DNA from: an uncultured Acetobacteraceae bacterium
GTDB taxonomy: Bacteria > Pseudomonadota > Alphaproteobacteria > Acetobacterales > Acetobacteraceae
Direction of reading: 5' to 3'
Length of the DNA: 64,000 nucleotides
NCBI GenBank assembly: GCA_903877125.1
Contig: CAIRCM010000087.1
Location: 1 to 64,000, forward strand
Below are positions 3 through 5,987 of this stretch, one piece after another (position 1 is the stretch's first letter; the number at the start of each line of letters is the position of its first letter). A program made the translations under genes and the position numbers. Below the pieces are notes generated by a model, which made no database searches, was not told the DNA's origin, and worked only from the letters and a program-made list of their open reading frames with translations.

Positions 3-410
3 GCACCCGAGGAACTGGCCGAAAAGCTGGGCATGCCGCTGGAGAAAGTGCGGAAGGTCCTGAAGATCGCCAAGGAACCGATTTCCCTGGAAACGCCGAT
101 CGGCGACGAAGAAGATTCGCACCTCGGCGATTTCATCGAGGACAAGGCCGCGGTCATCCCGCTGGACGCCGCGATCCAGGCCAACCTGCGCGAAGCCACG
201 ACCCGCGTGCTGTCGTCGCTGACGCCGCGTGAGGAACGCGTGCTGCGTATGCGCTTCGGCATCGGCATGAACACCGACCACACGCTGGAAGAGGTCGGCC
301 AGCAGTTCAACGTAACCCGCGAGCGTATCCGTCAGATCGAGGCGAAGGCGCTGCGCAAACTGAAACACCCGAGCCGGAGCCGGAAGCTGCGCAGCTTCCT
401 GGATGACTGA
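3..410 (+). CDS. rpoD: RNA polymerase sigma factor RpoD, C-terminal part (5' truncated by window edge)
   Basis: This is the C-terminal end of the primary sigma factor, which directs core RNA polymerase to -10/-35 promoters. The frame is open from base 3, and the gene starts upstream of the window. Visible are the region 3/4 linker ([20 protein letters not shown]), the region 4.1 block [15 protein letters not shown] and the region 4.2 helix-turn-helix [20 protein letters not shown], ending RSFLDD as in typical RpoD proteins. The stop codon TGA shares its A with the start codon of the next gene (TGATG), so the downstream ATPase may be translationally coupled to rpoD. Identity is clear from these near-invariant motifs; only the N-terminal part is unseen. 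Confidence 0.97.
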
Positions 411-2071
411 TGCTGACGCGGCTACGGGTTCGTAATTTTAAGAATCTGGAGTCGCTCGACATCGAGTTAGGGCAGACCGTCGTCTTCATTGGGCCGAACA
501 ATTCGGGGAAGACGACGGCTTTGCAGGCGCTGGCATTGTGGCGGAGCGGGATCGTTGCGCTTGCGCGCTCGGCGGAGCGCACTGAATATATTGACGGCGT
601 ACGCATAGCCACTTTGAATCGGCTGGCTATCACCCATACACCGGTTTCCGATACCAAGCTGCTTTGGAACCGCCTTGACTTTGATACCAGTTCGGCAAGA
701 ACGGGAACGGGCGATCCACCCTGGATCAAGATCGAAGTCGAGGGTGAGGCCGAAAATTCGCCCTGGATCTCCGATCTCACATTTAACCGGGACAATCCTG
801 AGTCCATCACATGCTCGACGGTCGCACCGCCGGGAAGCAGTTCAGCAACCATAATCGATGACCCTGACTTGGCAAGACTGGCTTTTCTGCCGCCGATGTC
901 TGGCCTTGCCGCGGAAGAGCCCGAAATTCAAACCGGGCGGATCGACGTCCTAATCGGTGAAGGGCAAACCGCCCAAATCATGCGAAATCTTTGCTTTCGC
1001 GTCCACGAGTCTACCCCGGCAAGTTGGAGTAGGATCGCGTCGCGGATGCGGACGATGTTCGGTATCGATCTCCACGTTCCTGTCCGCGACATCGCACGCG
1101 GTTCAATACGTCTACGTTATATGGAACAGGGGATCGAACTCGATATCGCGAGTGCCGGCCGGGGACTCCAACAAACCCTGCTGCTCCTCGCCCATCTATA
1201 CGCCAACCCCGGCACAACCCTCCTGCTCGACGAACCCGACGCCCACCTCGAAATCCTCCGTCAGCGACAAATCTACAACGTCCTCACTGAATGCGCCGCG
1301 GAGACCGGCTCGCAAATCATCGCCGCCAGCCATTCCGAGATCATCCTGAACGAGGCCGCCGACCGCGACGTCGTCATCGCCTTCGTCGGCAAACCGCACC
1401 GCATCAACGACCGTGGCTCCCAAGTCCTGAAAGCCCTGCGGGAAATCGGCTACGATCAGTTCCATCAGGCCGATCTCAAAGGTGCCGTCCTCTACCTCGA
1501 AGGTGCCACGGATCTTGCCATTTTGCGCGCGCTCGCCATCAAACTCGGCCATCCCGCGGCGGCGCTTCTGGAGCAGCCGTTCGTGCATTACGTCGCCGAT
1601 CAGCCCAACGCTGCGCTCCACCATTTCCACGGCCTACGCGAGGCTCGACCGGACTTGGTCGGCTTCGCTCTGTTCGATCGGCTGGGCCGGGGCCTGCCGC
1701 GCTCCTTCGCGATTCCGGGGCATAGCTGGCGCAAATGCGAAATCGAGAACTACATCGCCAGCCGCGAGACCCTGCTCCGTTTCGCCGATGCGACCCAGCA
1801 GCGCGGCGCCATGGAAAAGGCCGTCGACGAGGTCGAGCGGGCTTTGGCAACCCTGGGCGACAACGCCTGGAGCGATGACATCAAAATGTCCGAGCGCGTC
1901 CTGCCCGCTATTTTCAGCAATTTCTATCGGAACCTGGGATTGCGAAACGTCATGGCCAAAGCCGACTTTCACGTTCTGGTGAACCATATCGATCCCGCTG
2001 AAATCGACCCTGAAGTCACCGGCGTTCTCGATCTCCTTTGCGAAGCGTTGCGACACGCAAAACCGGCTTAA
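410..2071 (+). CDS. OLD-family-like ATPase with C-terminal TOPRIM domain
   Basis: A 553-residue ABC/SMC-type ATPase. Walker A is GPNNSGKT at residues 28-35, an ABC-like segment ASAGRGLQQ lies near 246, Walker B LLLDEPDAH near 269-277, and the switch histidine ASHSE follows. The C-terminal part has a TOPRIM-like start (YLEGATDLAILRAL, about 361-374, with the metal-binding Glu), then ALFDRLGRG where classical OLD nucleases carry D-x-D, and a KCEIENYI segment common in OLD-type proteins. Known OLD proteins are ATP-dependent nucleases, many acting in phage defence. Here the second acidic TOPRIM motif is weak, so nuclease activity is uncertain. The ATG overlaps the rpoD stop by one base, an odd place for such a gene. 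No partner such as a UvrD-like GajB is adjacent. Confidence 0.8.
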   Translation: MLTRLRVRNFKNLESLDIELGQTVVFIGPNNSGKTTALQALALWRSGIVALARSAERTEYIDGVRIATLNRLAITHTPVSDTKLLWNRLDFDTSSARTGTGDPPWIKIEVEGEAENSPWISDLTFNRDNPESITCSTVAPPGSSSATIIDDPDLARLAFLPPMSGLAAEEPEIQTGRIDVLIGEGQTAQIMRNLCFRVHESTPASWSRIASRMRTMFGIDLHVPVRDIARGSIRLRYMEQGIELDIASAGRGLQQTLLLLAHLYANPGTTLLLDEPDAHLEILRQRQIYNVLTECAAETGSQIIAASHSEIILNEAADRDVVIAFVGKPHRINDRGSQVLKALREIGYDQFHQADLKGAVLYLEGATDLAILRALAIKLGHPAAALLEQPFVHYVADQPNAALHHFHGLREARPDLVGFALFDRLGRGLPRSFAIPGHSWRKCEIENYIASRETLLRFADATQQRGAMEKAVDEVERALATLGDNAWSDDIKMSERVLPAIFSNFYRNLGLRNVMAKADFHVLVNHIDPAEIDPEVTGVLDLLCEALRHAKPA

Positions 2072-2140: not shown

Positions 2141-3325
2141 ATGGCCGAAATCATTCGCGTGCCGATCGGCATCGCCCTGACCAGTGGCAATTACACCGCG
2201 TCCATCTCGGTGGGCGCCAAACAGCAGACGCTCCATGTCATGCTGGACACCGGCAGCAGCATGCTGGTCGTCGATGGCGCCATCTTCGATCCGGATGGGG
2301 ACCCAAGCGTCACGCCCACGCAAATGCTGCAGAGAGCGGAATTCCCATCCGGCACTTTTTTGGCCGCCGTCATGCGGACTTCGGTTGGCTTGGCCACCGC
2401 ACCTGGCACGTCGGCCGCAGCGCTCCCTGATGCCAACCTGGCCGTCACCTACGACAATCCGCCGGGCACGTTCGGCCAGGCCGACGGGATATTCGGTCTG
2501 GGGTTCGCCGCGCTCAACAAGGCGTACCGCATGCCCGCCAACACCTGGCAGAACAAGTACACCGCGGAGCAATTGAACCTCGGTCAGGAAACCGGCCTCG
2601 ATCCCTTCTTCGACCAGTGGGTGGCCGCGCAACGCGTCGCCAACAAATTCGCCTTCGCCATCGATCGTTCCACGGCGCGGGAAGCGCTTGCGGACCCCGC
2701 ATCCGATCCGGCGAACAACGGGCTGTTCATCCTGGGTGGCGGGGCGGAGTGCGAAGACCTCTACACCGGACCGTTTACCGAGGTCGCGATCGTGCACGAG
2801 GAATATTACAACGCCAATCTGACGGCGATCCGGGTGGGCGATCTGTCGATGGACGTACCGCCGATCGCCGCGGGCGCGAAAGCATCGTCGAATGCCATCA
2901 TCGATAGCGGAACGACCAATCTGATGCTGGATCAAACGGTCTATGATCGGCTGATTGCGTTGTTCCGGTCCGTTAACCCTGATTTGGCACAGGCGCTGGT
3001 CACCTTCGCACCGAACAGCAGCAGCGGCGTCGAGCAATCCCAGATCGACCTGACCCGTTGGCCGCCCATCAGCTTCGTCATGCAGGGTGCCGGTGGCAAT
3101 CCGTCAGCCGTCACGGTGCAACCGAAGGATTACTGGCAGTTCGACACGGGGCAGGCGGGCAATGCCTCCCCGGTGCTGGTTGGCGACGGTGGAGTGTTCG
3201 GGGGGCAATCGAACCTTGGATTGCCCCTGTTCGCGGGGCATTTCGTGGTGTTCGATCGCACCGGCGGCAACGGTCGCGGTGTCGTCGGCTTCGCCGCCCG
3301 AACCAGTAGCGCTTTGATCGGTTGA
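2141..3325 (+). CDS. Pepsin-like (family A1) aspartic protease, no signal peptide
   Basis: A 394-residue protein with both active-site signatures of bilobal pepsin-type proteases: MLDTGSSMLVVD with Asp36 in the N-lobe and IIDSGTTNLML with Asp255 in the C-lobe, about 220 residues apart as in two-lobed A1 enzymes. The retroviral/PerP type would show only one. The second motif being DSGT is also typical of A1. The N terminus (MAEIIRVPIGIALTSGNY) has no hydrophobic signal peptide or propeptide, recalling the few described bacterial pepsin homologues, which are soluble and not zymogens. A G-rich stretch lies upstream of the ATG. Family assignment is strong; the substrate is unknown. It is convergent with the di-haem cytochrome gene across a hairpin. 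Confidence 0.82.
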   Translation: MAEIIRVPIGIALTSGNYTASISVGAKQQTLHVMLDTGSSMLVVDGAIFDPDGDPSVTPTQMLQRAEFPSGTFLAAVMRTSVGLATAPGTSAAALPDANLAVTYDNPPGTFGQADGIFGLGFAALNKAYRMPANTWQNKYTAEQLNLGQETGLDPFFDQWVAAQRVANKFAFAIDRSTAREALADPASDPANNGLFILGGGAECEDLYTGPFTEVAIVHEEYYNANLTAIRVGDLSMDVPPIAAGAKASSNAIIDSGTTNLMLDQTVYDRLIALFRSVNPDLAQALVTFAPNSSSGVEQSQIDLTRWPPISFVMQGAGGNPSAVTVQPKDYWQFDTGQAGNASPVLVGDGGVFGGQSNLGLPLFAGHFVVFDRTGGNGRGVVGFAARTSSALIG

Positions 3326-3360: not shown

Positions 3361-3390
3361 AGCACGCCGACCGTTTCCGGCCGGCGTGCT
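3361..3390. terminator. Bidirectional hairpin terminator between convergent genes
   Basis: A 13-bp stem with one mismatch (AGCACGCCGACCG paired with CGGCCGGCGTGCT) around a TTTC loop. It sits between the stop of the aspartic protease gene and the stop of the cytochrome gene. On the minus strand the stem is followed by the T-rich TTGTTGTT, so it should terminate the cytochrome transcript; on the plus strand the T tract is lacking and termination is less certain. Confidence 0.65.
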
Positions 3391-3396
3391 GTCAGA

Positions 3397-5253
3397 TCAA
3401 AGTGTCTTCATGTACTCGATCAAGGCGCGAATATCCGCATCGCTCAAGCGGGCGTTGCCGTAGTCATGGCCGGTATTCGCATTGCCATCGATCGGTGCGC
3501 CTTTGGCGTCCTGGGTCTGGAACAGGAAGGTGTTCCCCGGCGCGGCGGCATCGGTCCGCAGGCCGACGTTCTCGGGGTCGAATTCCCGCGTCCCGACGTA
3601 GAAGGACGGCATGCGCTTCGCCGGCGGCAATAACAGCTCCCGCAGGTTGGCGACCGACCCGTTGTGCAGGTAGGGAGCGGTTGCCCAGATGCCCTGCAGC
3701 GGCCGGCCCTTGTAGACCATTTTGGGATTCGCCGGATCATCCTGATAAGCCCTGCACGCCGCCGCTCGGGCCTGCTTCGCCGTAAGCCCGGCCTGGAAAA
3801 TCTTCCGGGGCAGGGGAAGTCCTTTCGAGAACCCGAAAATTCCCTGGAAACTCGACACGACCAGATCGCCCTTTTTGTCCAGCAATGCCCCTAACGCGGC
3901 GTTGCCGGTCAACGTGAAACTGTCGGATGTCGATCCGAACTTCGTCCCGTTGATGAATTGCGTGGAGTTGCCTTTGAAGAGACCGGTGTTCGCCCAATCC
4001 AGAATGGCATTGCAGGCCATCCAAAAGTCGGTGTTGGTCGGATCCGAACCGGCCAGAACGGGCTGCACGTTCACCGTATACTTCTCGGTCAGGTTCGCCC
4101 GCGACGATGGCACCGTGTGGCAGGATGCACACTGCGTCTTGAACAGCCCCGCCCCGATATTGGCCAGATCTTGTTTGATCGCCGGGAAAATCGCGGGCCA
4201 AGCCGGGGGTTGCAGCGTGGTGAGCTGCGTTTCCATCTTCACGAGATTCGGCAGATTGATACTGGATGTGTAGCCTTGCAGCAGGCCCGGATTGTTGCGG
4301 ATGACGATGTCGGCGAACACGCCGATCACTTCTCCGGTGTTGCGCACCATGGCGCCGGCCCGCAAATCGTTCACGTCGATATTCGGCGCGCTGGCGTTCC
4401 ATTCCACCTTGTTCAACTGCGGCACGTTCCACAGGAACGGGTAGCTGACAGGCGCATCGGAGGGGTTGGCGTTCTGATGCACCACATCCGCGGGATTGGC
4501 GATCAGGGCCACCTTGTTGAAGATGTGCCCGATGGCGTCCAACCGCCCGTAGCCGTACCGCAGGTCGCCGGGATTGTTGAGGCTCGCCAGGGCGGTGTTC
4601 CATTTGTTGAGCTGCGTGAGAGCCGTGAGCAGCATGCCGGTATCGGTCGCCGAAGCATTGGGCCCAAGCACCCGGTTGGCGAAACGGTTGAATTTCGACG
4701 GATCCTTGGAATCCGCGGTCTGCAGCAGCGCCTTGTTCAGGGACTCAAGGAACGACTGGAAATCGGCCAGTGTCGGCGCGCCGTCCACCCGTACCCGCGT
4801 GTTGTTATAGGTCAGCTCCGCGGTGTGACAGGCCGAGCAGTTCATGCCGACCCAGGGTTCGTTGTCGCTCTGCCCGGCTTTCCAGCGGAGTTTGGTGTTG
4901 CTCAGATTGGCGTCGGATTGGCAATCGACCGCGAAACCAAGCGGTATGGCCGGGTCATAGGGGCAGTTCCGATCGGGACTCGCCCACCCCGCGGTGGGAT
5001 TGGGCAGGTAGCGGAATTTCTCGATGTTGGCCGGATCGAGGAACATTGCGGTACTGTCGGGCTGTTCCAACGCATCCAGCCAAGCCCTGGGGATCAGTCG
5101 GGAGCCCTGGGTCGCGGTCCACCATGCGATCCGCTGCTCCTGCGACCACCCTTGCGGCACGTCGGCCCAGCCGGCGTTCTGCGCCCGACCGGACACCCCT
5201 AGCGCCATCAGGGCGATAATCGTGACAGACAAAAGACGGATCAGTTTCGCCAT
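3397..5253 (-). CDS. Exported di-haem cytochrome c (RoxA / cytochrome c peroxidase-like)
   Basis: About 618 residues with an N-terminal signal peptide (MAKLIRLLSVTIIALMALG, then GRAQNAG) and two haem c sites: NCSACHT near residue 138 and QCASCHT near 373. The C-terminal part contains YKGRPLQGIWATAPYLHNGS, LLPPAKRMPSFYVG and REFDPENVGL, which I associate with the RoxA-like branch of di-haem peroxidase relatives; rubber oxygenase RoxA is one member, and most members have no known substrate. It should act in the periplasm. I chose the ATG at 5253, preceded by GGGGGGTGGAAG, over the ATG nine codons upstream, because the shorter form begins directly with the signal peptide. The haem count and export are seen; peroxidase versus dioxygenase activity cannot be decided. 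Confidence 0.75.
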   Translation of the reverse strand: MAKLIRLLSVTIIALMALGVSGRAQNAGWADVPQGWSQEQRIAWWTATQGSRLIPRAWLDALEQPDSTAMFLDPANIEKFRYLPNPTAGWASPDRNCPYDPAIPLGFAVDCQSDANLSNTKLRWKAGQSDNEPWVGMNCSACHTAELTYNNTRVRVDGAPTLADFQSFLESLNKALLQTADSKDPSKFNRFANRVLGPNASATDTGMLLTALTQLNKWNTALASLNNPGDLRYGYGRLDAIGHIFNKVALIANPADVVHQNANPSDAPVSYPFLWNVPQLNKVEWNASAPNIDVNDLRAGAMVRNTGEVIGVFADIVIRNNPGLLQGYTSSINLPNLVKMETQLTTLQPPAWPAIFPAIKQDLANIGAGLFKTQCASCHTVPSSRANLTEKYTVNVQPVLAGSDPTNTDFWMACNAILDWANTGLFKGNSTQFINGTKFGSTSDSFTLTGNAALGALLDKKGDLVVSSFQGIFGFSKGLPLPRKIFQAGLTAKQARAAACRAYQDDPANPKMVYKGRPLQGIWATAPYLHNGSVANLRELLLPPAKRMPSFYVGTREFDPENVGLRTDAAAPGNTFLFQTQDAKGAPIDGNANTGHDYGNARLSDADIRALIEYMKTL

Positions 5254-5420
5254 GACTTCCACCCCCCGATTTTCCGCCATTTGGCGGTAAAAACGTTATC
5301 TATCGTTAAAAGGTTAGCAGTCCGCCGAACGAGATGCAACAGCGTAATGGAGGGCAGCGGAGCCACGATCTCGCCCCGAATCCGGATTGCGGTTACTGTC
5401 GCCCCGAACAACCCGCGCGG

Positions 5421-5987
5421 ATGGAACGTATGGAAGCGGTCGAACGAGTGACGGTAACCGTGACCTTTCTGCGGATGGACCACCCGCCGAGCGAAAGGGC
5501 ACCGGCCATGCCGCCGGGATATCAGATCGTGCGGGCGACCAGGCCCAGCGTGGCGTTCTACCGCTACCTCTATAACACCGTCGGTGCCGATTACGTCTGG
5601 TGGCTCCGCCGCACGCTAGACGACCGGGAACTCGCGGACCTGCTGGCGGAGCGCGAAATTTCGATCCACACGCTGTATGAGGGCGGCGAACCCGCCGGTT
5701 TCTTCGAACTCGACGCCCGGAACTGGACGGACATGAACCTGAGTTATTTCGGTCTCATGCCTCGCAGCGTCGGCACGGGCATCGGCTATCGGTTCCTCCG
5801 CCATGCGATCGATACAGGCTGGTCATTCGGCGGCAAGGGCATGACGGTGAACACCTGCACGGCGGATCACCCGCGGGCGTTGCCGACCTACATCCGCTCC
5901 GGCTTCCGTCCGATCCGACAAGCGCGCGAGAACTGGAACGTGCCGACCCGTCTAGGGCTTCGGATCCCCCCGCACCTCCGCGCATAG
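5421..5987 (+). CDS. GNAT-family N-acetyltransferase
   Basis: About 188 residues in the GCN5-related acetyltransferase fold: an acceptor half (VWWLRRTLDDRELADLLAER), strands ending in GFFELDARNWTDMNLSYFGL, the acetyl-CoA loop segment MPRSVGTGIGYRFLRHAID in place of the classical Q/RxxGxG/A, and the final VNTCTADHPRALPTYIRSGF typical of the family. This subtype often appears in alphaproteobacteria without a known substrate. The open frame extends back to an ATG at 5334, but the start at 5421 avoids a low-complexity leader; other starts are possible. The 3' end overlaps the convergent YbaK-like gene by 36 bases. Confidence 0.75.
   Translation: MERMEAVERVTVTVTFLRMDHPPSERAPAMPPGYQIVRATRPSVAFYRYLYNTVGADYVWWLRRTLDDRELADLLAEREISIHTLYEGGEPAGFFELDARNWTDMNLSYFGLMPRSVGTGIGYRFLRHAIDTGWSFGGKGMTVNTCTADHPRALPTYIRSGFRPIRQARENWNVPTRLGLRIPPHLRA

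Follow-up and report, generated by a model that had tools for sequence, protein, structure and literature searches.

The locus and the family of its protease

The stretch of DNA analyzed in this study (the window, 64,000 nucleotides) is the beginning of contig C87 from a 5.15-Mb genome of an uncultured Acetobacteraceae bacterium, assembled in 231 contigs. At 2141-3325 on the forward strand it carries an open reading frame of 394 residues (ATG start, TGA stop), which family profile, alignment and active-site evidence point to as a shewasin-type homologue of pepsin. The codons for the two predicted catalytic Asp residues are located at 2246-2248 (D36, within DTGSS) and 2903-2905 (D255, within DSGTT), and the codon for F68, which by alignment and profile match occupies the column of pepsin flap Tyr75 and of the flap Tyr of beta-secretase 2, at 2342-2344, all on the forward strand. 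The spacing between D36 and D255 is 219 residues, longer than the 183 of pepsin and inside the range of 190-358 that follows for bacterial homologues from Table 2 of PMC2761423. The protein includes a single Cys and has a pI of 4.4. On reading of the sequence neither a signal nor a propeptide is visible at its N terminus, and the propeptide was judged to be absent because Asp36 is about as near to the N terminus as Asp32 is in mature pepsin; the N termini of the six copies from the source genus, read in the same way, carry no signal peptide and no prosegment, the frame of one of them (L022) being longer with possible alternative starts. The sequence-only reading had claimed this absence and proposed the protein as a useful non-zymogen example; neither is visible, as stated above, but the part of such an example is already filled by shewasins A and D as described in PMC4814920.

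The PF00026 profile matched the window protein with 55.6 bits (cut-off 19.9) and the TAXi_C profile (xylanase inhibitor C-terminal) with 31.1 bits, and no match was obtained up to E 0.01 with NCBIfam and PADLOC models. PF00026 ran near end-to-end in one stretch for three of the seven relatives scanned (L005, L008 and L042), the best stretch being partial for the window protein and for the other four. Among solved structures, the best credible relatives are beta-secretases 2 and 1 (46 bits with a single-sequence query); a profile of 8 relatives matched beta-secretase 2 with 96.1 bits (E 2.6e-26), and both lobes are covered since this match runs over 17-388 of the profile and 13-353 of the chain. 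The top six PDB rows (Cake4-Cake10) were dropped as repeat artefacts, their single stretches giving i-Evalues of 1.6-6.3 (three shown). Chance origin of the motifs is excluded because the 48 invariant columns common to 8 diverged homologues include the motif residues. An AlphaFold2 prediction from three sequences reached a pLDDT of 32.0 and a pTM of 0.36, and the two-lobe reading is sequence-based. The presence in one chain of two predicted lobes, both of which carry a D[TS]G motif with its Asp, together with the two-lobe profile match, argues against a single-lobe retropepsin (family A2). By these sequence features the protein is a two-lobe pepsin-type protein (MEROPS A1) of the described bacterial shewasin-type group, in agreement with the earlier claim of a two-lobe bacterial homologue carrying both Asp motifs.

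The protease gene is followed tail to tail by a gene on the reverse strand (3397-5280) for a 627-residue di-haem protein similar to RoxA and cytochrome c peroxidase, with the haem motifs CSACH and CASCH and an N terminus that is signal-like by eye. It matched NF040606 ('di-heme-cytochrome C peroxidase') with 538.6 bits (cut-off 150) and contains the RoxA-like domain PF21419, two CXXCH motifs and this domain being shared with the rubber oxygenases RoxA and RoxB, the diol synthase PA2077/PA2078 and the NF040606 family. Its best solved relative is 4b2n, a weak match, named as RoxA in PMC4496055; the models for RoxA, RoxB and RoxC scored far under their cut-offs. PA2077 and PA2078 of P. aeruginosa, to which the likeness is by description only, are fatty-acid oxygenases with periplasmic activity, reported to resemble RoxA and to be related to di-haem peroxidases (PMC4496055, PMC5155153). 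The neighbour thus probably works in the periplasm as a di-haem oxygenase or peroxidase. The 71-base gap between the two stop codons folds with -29.3 kcal/mol (z -3.9) and includes a strong hairpin at 3361-3390, possibly a shared terminator though with no T run. Among the other pairs described below, the gaps of L040, L041 and L042 are hairpin-rich by eye only, and those of L039, L043 and L044 measure only 2-15 bases.

The pair is bordered on the left by the 3' end of rpoD (3-410, forward strand) and on the right by a GNAT acetyltransferase gene (5334-5987, forward strand), which mark an insertion site and lie outside the pair. Directly after rpoD and before the protease, the window carries an extra gene for an AAA ATPase (410-2071, forward strand; AAA_21/AAA_15) with unspecific NsnB/AriA/GajA/Old-like PADLOC scores; G003 and G772 lack it at this position, and G009 has a relative right behind rpoD (62% over 112 residues, at a contig end). 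A defence system was rejected as an interpretation: PADLOC up to E 0.01 gave nothing for the protease or the cytochrome, and the matches of the ATPase are spread over 115 PADLOC families.

Distribution of the protease and its pairing with the cytochrome

Rarity of such proteins in bacteria, claimed in the sequence-only reading, was borne out by the PF00026 search, which detected one gene only in the source genome, one positive among 385 genomes of the class (the source genome itself) and 8 among 398 of the phylum, source included (7 of the 8 above cut-off). With an alignment query, source genome included where drawn, the protease was found in 6 of 33 genomes of the source genus, in 4 of 249 family genomes sampled (G915 from another genus, the other three from the source genus), in 4 of 299 of the phylum, in a single one of 289 genomes from the class centred on G502 (G502 itself) and in 17 among 60 from the genus of G732. 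Many of the genomes that supplied the relatives are fragmented. We take this last genus to be Shewanella because the gene at 4347437-4348966 of G1025 fits that of S. sediminis at 4347419..4348963 in Table 1 of PMC2761423. One of the phylum matches, in G430 (L038, G430:C77:10804-11112), is weak and partial (E 1.8e-5), covers the first lobe of the protease profile and lies within an open frame of 3894 residues; L038 and another weak partial match, L014, were excluded from all alignments. Carriage by plasmid, phage or virus was set aside, as the plasmid, phage and viral-contig collections gave no match to the protease.

The seven Acetobacteraceae copies share 40-63% protein identity. The named close relatives, which comprise an Acetobacteraceae MAG with 63% and Acidisphaera sp. 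S103 with 51% identity, were equated with the loci G772 C317 and G770 C89, whose proteins score identically, and each was counted once. The neighbourhoods were compared by gene calls and all-against-all BLAST for nine regions, the seven Acetobacteraceae loci plus those of G502 and G539. An orthologue of the cytochrome gene stands tail to tail with the protease gene in all seven Acetobacteraceae loci, with gaps of 71, 14, 106, 66, 75, 2 and 15 bases. The seven loci represent four genomic contexts: the rpoD/hemN context of the window, G003 and G772; a second one shared by G010 and G770; and two further ones, those of G775 and G915, whose other called genes are without a match in the rest of the set. 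Two weak matches, each at a distance of over 9 kb from the pair in the window, link different contexts: window 14424-15233 matches a frame beside the G010 gene (46%), and window 15468-16421 matches frames of G770 and G010 (27-28%). Among 28 rpoD loci, GNAT follows rpoD with nothing pair-like in between in 5 (G011, G775, G021, G767 and G018), the pair is present in 2 (G003 and G772), and the other 21 show neither arrangement within the 1.5 kb examined.

Orthologues of the cytochrome are cleanly separated from paralogues (at least 689 bits versus at most 250). Any cytochrome match was found in 21 of the 33 genomes of the genus, and the orthologue in 7, which are the six bearers of the protease plus G016; by simple counting such overlap would arise in 7 of 1,107,568 draws, a figure overstated by the relatedness of the genomes. 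Among 178 genomes sampled from the family, only G000, G010 and G915 had the orthologue, each together with the protease. Over pairs of loci, protease identity rises with cytochrome identity (r 0.71, equalled or exceeded in 27 of 5040 permutations), and the seven-row trees of both genes hold the groups G010+G770 and G000+G003+G772, placing G775 and G915 differently. On our preferred reading the two genes form a patchy two-gene module, inherited and moved together. The conserved pairing with a di-haem cytochrome looks new: no paper in the open-licence literature searched joins pepsin with Acidisphaera, and among the matches listed there, bacterial pepsin was not linked with RoxA-like enzymes.

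Several observations weigh against a task common to both products and for a reading in which the cytochrome is a hitchhiker, the pair having entered the family jointly and remained adjacent over a few transfers while the shewasin-type protease acts as in our best explanation (see below). The tail-to-tail order means that the genes are convergent and not co-transcribed, excluding a single operon, and the predicted locations of the two products differ. The regions of 14-19 kb around the 17 Shewanella loci, G502 and G539 showed no such cytochrome, and presence of the protease is patchy (the 6 of 33 and 4 of 249 genomes above). Moreover, the addition of L008 breaks the G010+G770 group in the protease tree, at low support (65/32). 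The cytochrome is probably independent of the protease since G016 keeps it while the protease was found neither in the remaining 1.1 kb of the contig nor in the rest of the 84%-complete assembly. The G016 and G775 cytochromes are sisters in the tree (100/100), and the two genomes align at 86% over the cytochrome and about 900 preceding bases, the alignment ending at the cytochrome stop codon; either a loss in G016 or a gain in G775 could account for this pattern. Against a mere hitchhiker stands the adjacency in seven of seven loci, kept over four contexts in which other close neighbours vary and while protease identity falls to 40%. We rate joint entry with no joint function at a little short of even; it contains the same protease part as the best explanation, and the odds of the two overlap.

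Active site and flap

The catalytic Asp pair is invariant over 27 aligned rows, representing 26 distinct genes (the G1040 gene is present twice). The flap differs from that of pepsin. Tyr75, an important A1 residue though not kept in every member, is absent from the window protein, which has F68; in the profile alignment with beta-secretase 2, the flap Phe of the consensus is opposite the flap Tyr of that enzyme. Phe is present in all six copies of the genus and Tyr in all twenty other shewasin-type genes aligned, including G915 of the same family but another genus (L009-L011 left out of this count), and the flap reads about FxxGxxxAA in the genus versus mostly YGxGGWxGP in Shewanella. A single Tyr-to-Phe change suffices on the tree when shewasin-type rows only are counted; with L009-L011 included, the six Phe rows form one side of a branch in only 6% of bootstrap trees. 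The Tyr-to-Phe change across the genus looks new; neither it nor the haem-enzyme neighbour figured in the sequence-only reading. Since A1 members with Phe75 are listed in PMC2761423, we retained the A1 membership of the window protein and dropped the claim of ordinary activity.

Of the remaining active-site positions, the N-lobe psi-loop of the window protein has the hydrophobic-hydrophobic-Gly motif (IFG), and the C-lobe psi-loop is NLG (SNLG, Asn first) in the window copy and L004, ILG in L005, L006, L007 and L022, and LLG in L023. The column of pepsin Asp303 holds Leu (L361 in the window protein) in 24 of the 27 rows and Thr in 3 rows (2 distinct genes), Leu being also the residue reported for Shewanella and Colwellia in PMC2761423. 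At position 258 (pepsin Thr218) the copies of the genus have Thr (window), Ser (L004, L006), Asn (L005, L007) or Ala (L022), and the same column over the 27 rows includes Ala 11, Val 8, Thr 3, Ser 3 and Asn 2 times (one Val gene twice). Thus the published feature of Ala for Thr218 is not general in the shewasin-type group. At the Shewanella loci L013, L025-L035 and L119-L124, the second D[ST]G is followed not just by Ala but often by Val and once by Thr; in PMC2761423 the abstract gives Asp where the text gives Ala at position 218.

These features bear on an alternative that we consider rather unlikely, a pseudo-protease with little or no catalysis, whose fold would serve in regulation or in the binding of peptides. 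It would agree with the Phe and the altered flap sequence throughout the genus and with Asn at 258 in two copies and SNLG in two; F68 and, in the window copy and L004, the SNLG Asn may point to lost activity, and the variation of residue 258 among Thr, Ser, Asn and Ala within one genus stands on the same side. Furthermore, the Marinomonas and Sinorhizobium proteins, with Phe at 75 and psi-loop motifs missing, were judged more likely inactive in PMC2761423, the alignment being uncertain there, and that source, from 2009, mentions no natural Phe75 homologue shown to be active. On the other side, all six copies of the genus retain the DTG/DSG core with both Asp residues, a fungal enzyme with Phe or Asn at 75 works at a considerably reduced level (PMC3116508), and Phe at 75 of rhizopuspepsin allows reduced activity (PMC2761423). 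Purifying selection on the protease is visible and moderate, with NG86 dN/dS of 0.28-0.48 in 10 pairs from 5 of the 7 copies (G775 and G915 omitted), values that are rough because dS is high.

Relatives, origin and proposed role

In the protease tree, composed of bacterial rows, the Acetobacteraceae copies stand beside G502 (other family, same class), G539 (other family, same phylum) and the Shewanella genes; the branching order of L022 and L023 is not settled, and the residue composition of L012, L007, L004 and L009 is unusual. A recent horizontal transfer from a eukaryote, raised in the sequence-only reading, would account for the rare and patchy presence among bacteria and for solved-structure relatives that are eukaryotic with beta-secretases best, but is most improbable, because the nearest kin found are bacterial, already diverged (31-63% identity) and next to the window protein on this bacterial tree, and a eukaryote-like signal or propeptide is absent and the G+C content of the gene (0.63) compares with 0.61 for the window.

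Comparison with known pepsin homologues places the window protein nearest to shewasins A and D and other Shewanella and Colwellia homologues, with which it has in common two lobes, no visible signal or propeptide, a DTGSS-type first motif and Leu for pepsin Asp303; the Shewanella group is also patchy within its genus, as is the protease in the source genus. It differs from the shewasins in the flap Phe instead of Tyr, in Thr (T258) instead of the published Ala after the second DSG, in its one Cys and in the haem-enzyme neighbour. The Sinorhizobium and Marinomonas homologues, bacterial A1 proteins for which Phe is reported at 75 like F68, form a separate group in PMC2761423. L009, L010 and L011 represent a second, distant bacterial A1 kind (ALDSGSSQFKGD), two of them carrying long C-terminal extensions within frames of 723 and 659 residues; taken as the Sinorhizobium/Marinomonas kind by motif reading only, they are far from the window protein on the tree. 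The beta-secretase-like PxAP9 of Phytophthora likewise has a natural change of Tyr75 to Phe and a replaced Trp39 (PMC3116508), and as a eukaryotic protein it is a parallel that does not imply near kinship.

The explanation that we prefer, with confidence slightly better than even, is that a patchy two-gene module with the cytochrome encodes an aspartic endopeptidase without a zymogen stage, probably located in the cytoplasm and with a changed flap that is probably slower. The protein would be a monomeric two-lobe shewasin-type endopeptidase made without a propeptide, in which Asp36 and Asp255, judging from their conservation, would activate water by the mechanism of pepsin. The protease is expected to be slow or to have a narrow specificity because Phe at the flap weakens activity in the fungal enzyme without abolishing it. 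By analogy with native shewasin D, which is mainly cytoplasmic, acid-active and inhibited by pepstatin (PMC4814920), the protease probably stays in the cytoplasm, while its di-haem partner is probably exported. This preferred explanation draws on the retention of both Asp residues in 26 of 26 distinct genes although the Acetobacteraceae copies are so diverged, and on the dN/dS values, the single Cys, the low pI and the lack of a signal by reading. For the module it draws on the adjacency in all seven loci and four contexts, on the finding that all six protease bearers are among the seven genomes with the cytochrome orthologue, on the two subclades common to both gene trees and on the site that is empty in five genomes.

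The protease and the cytochrome may share a task. As a tentative extension, which we hold to be doubtful, the protease and the di-haem enzyme would form one functional module, in which the protease clears or trims protein oxidized by the haem enzyme, or the apo-enzyme, with the flap tuned to that single substrate. If true, this would be the first genetic partner known to us for any bacterial pepsin. PMC4814920 described detailed functional studies of bacterial pepsin-like proteases as not available in 2016, and none later was among the matches listed in the open-licence literature. The stable partner gene offers a first handle on the role of a bacterial pepsin-like protease, and with six natural Phe-flap copies and twenty Tyr-flap relatives at hand, A1 function without the flap tyrosine becomes testable.
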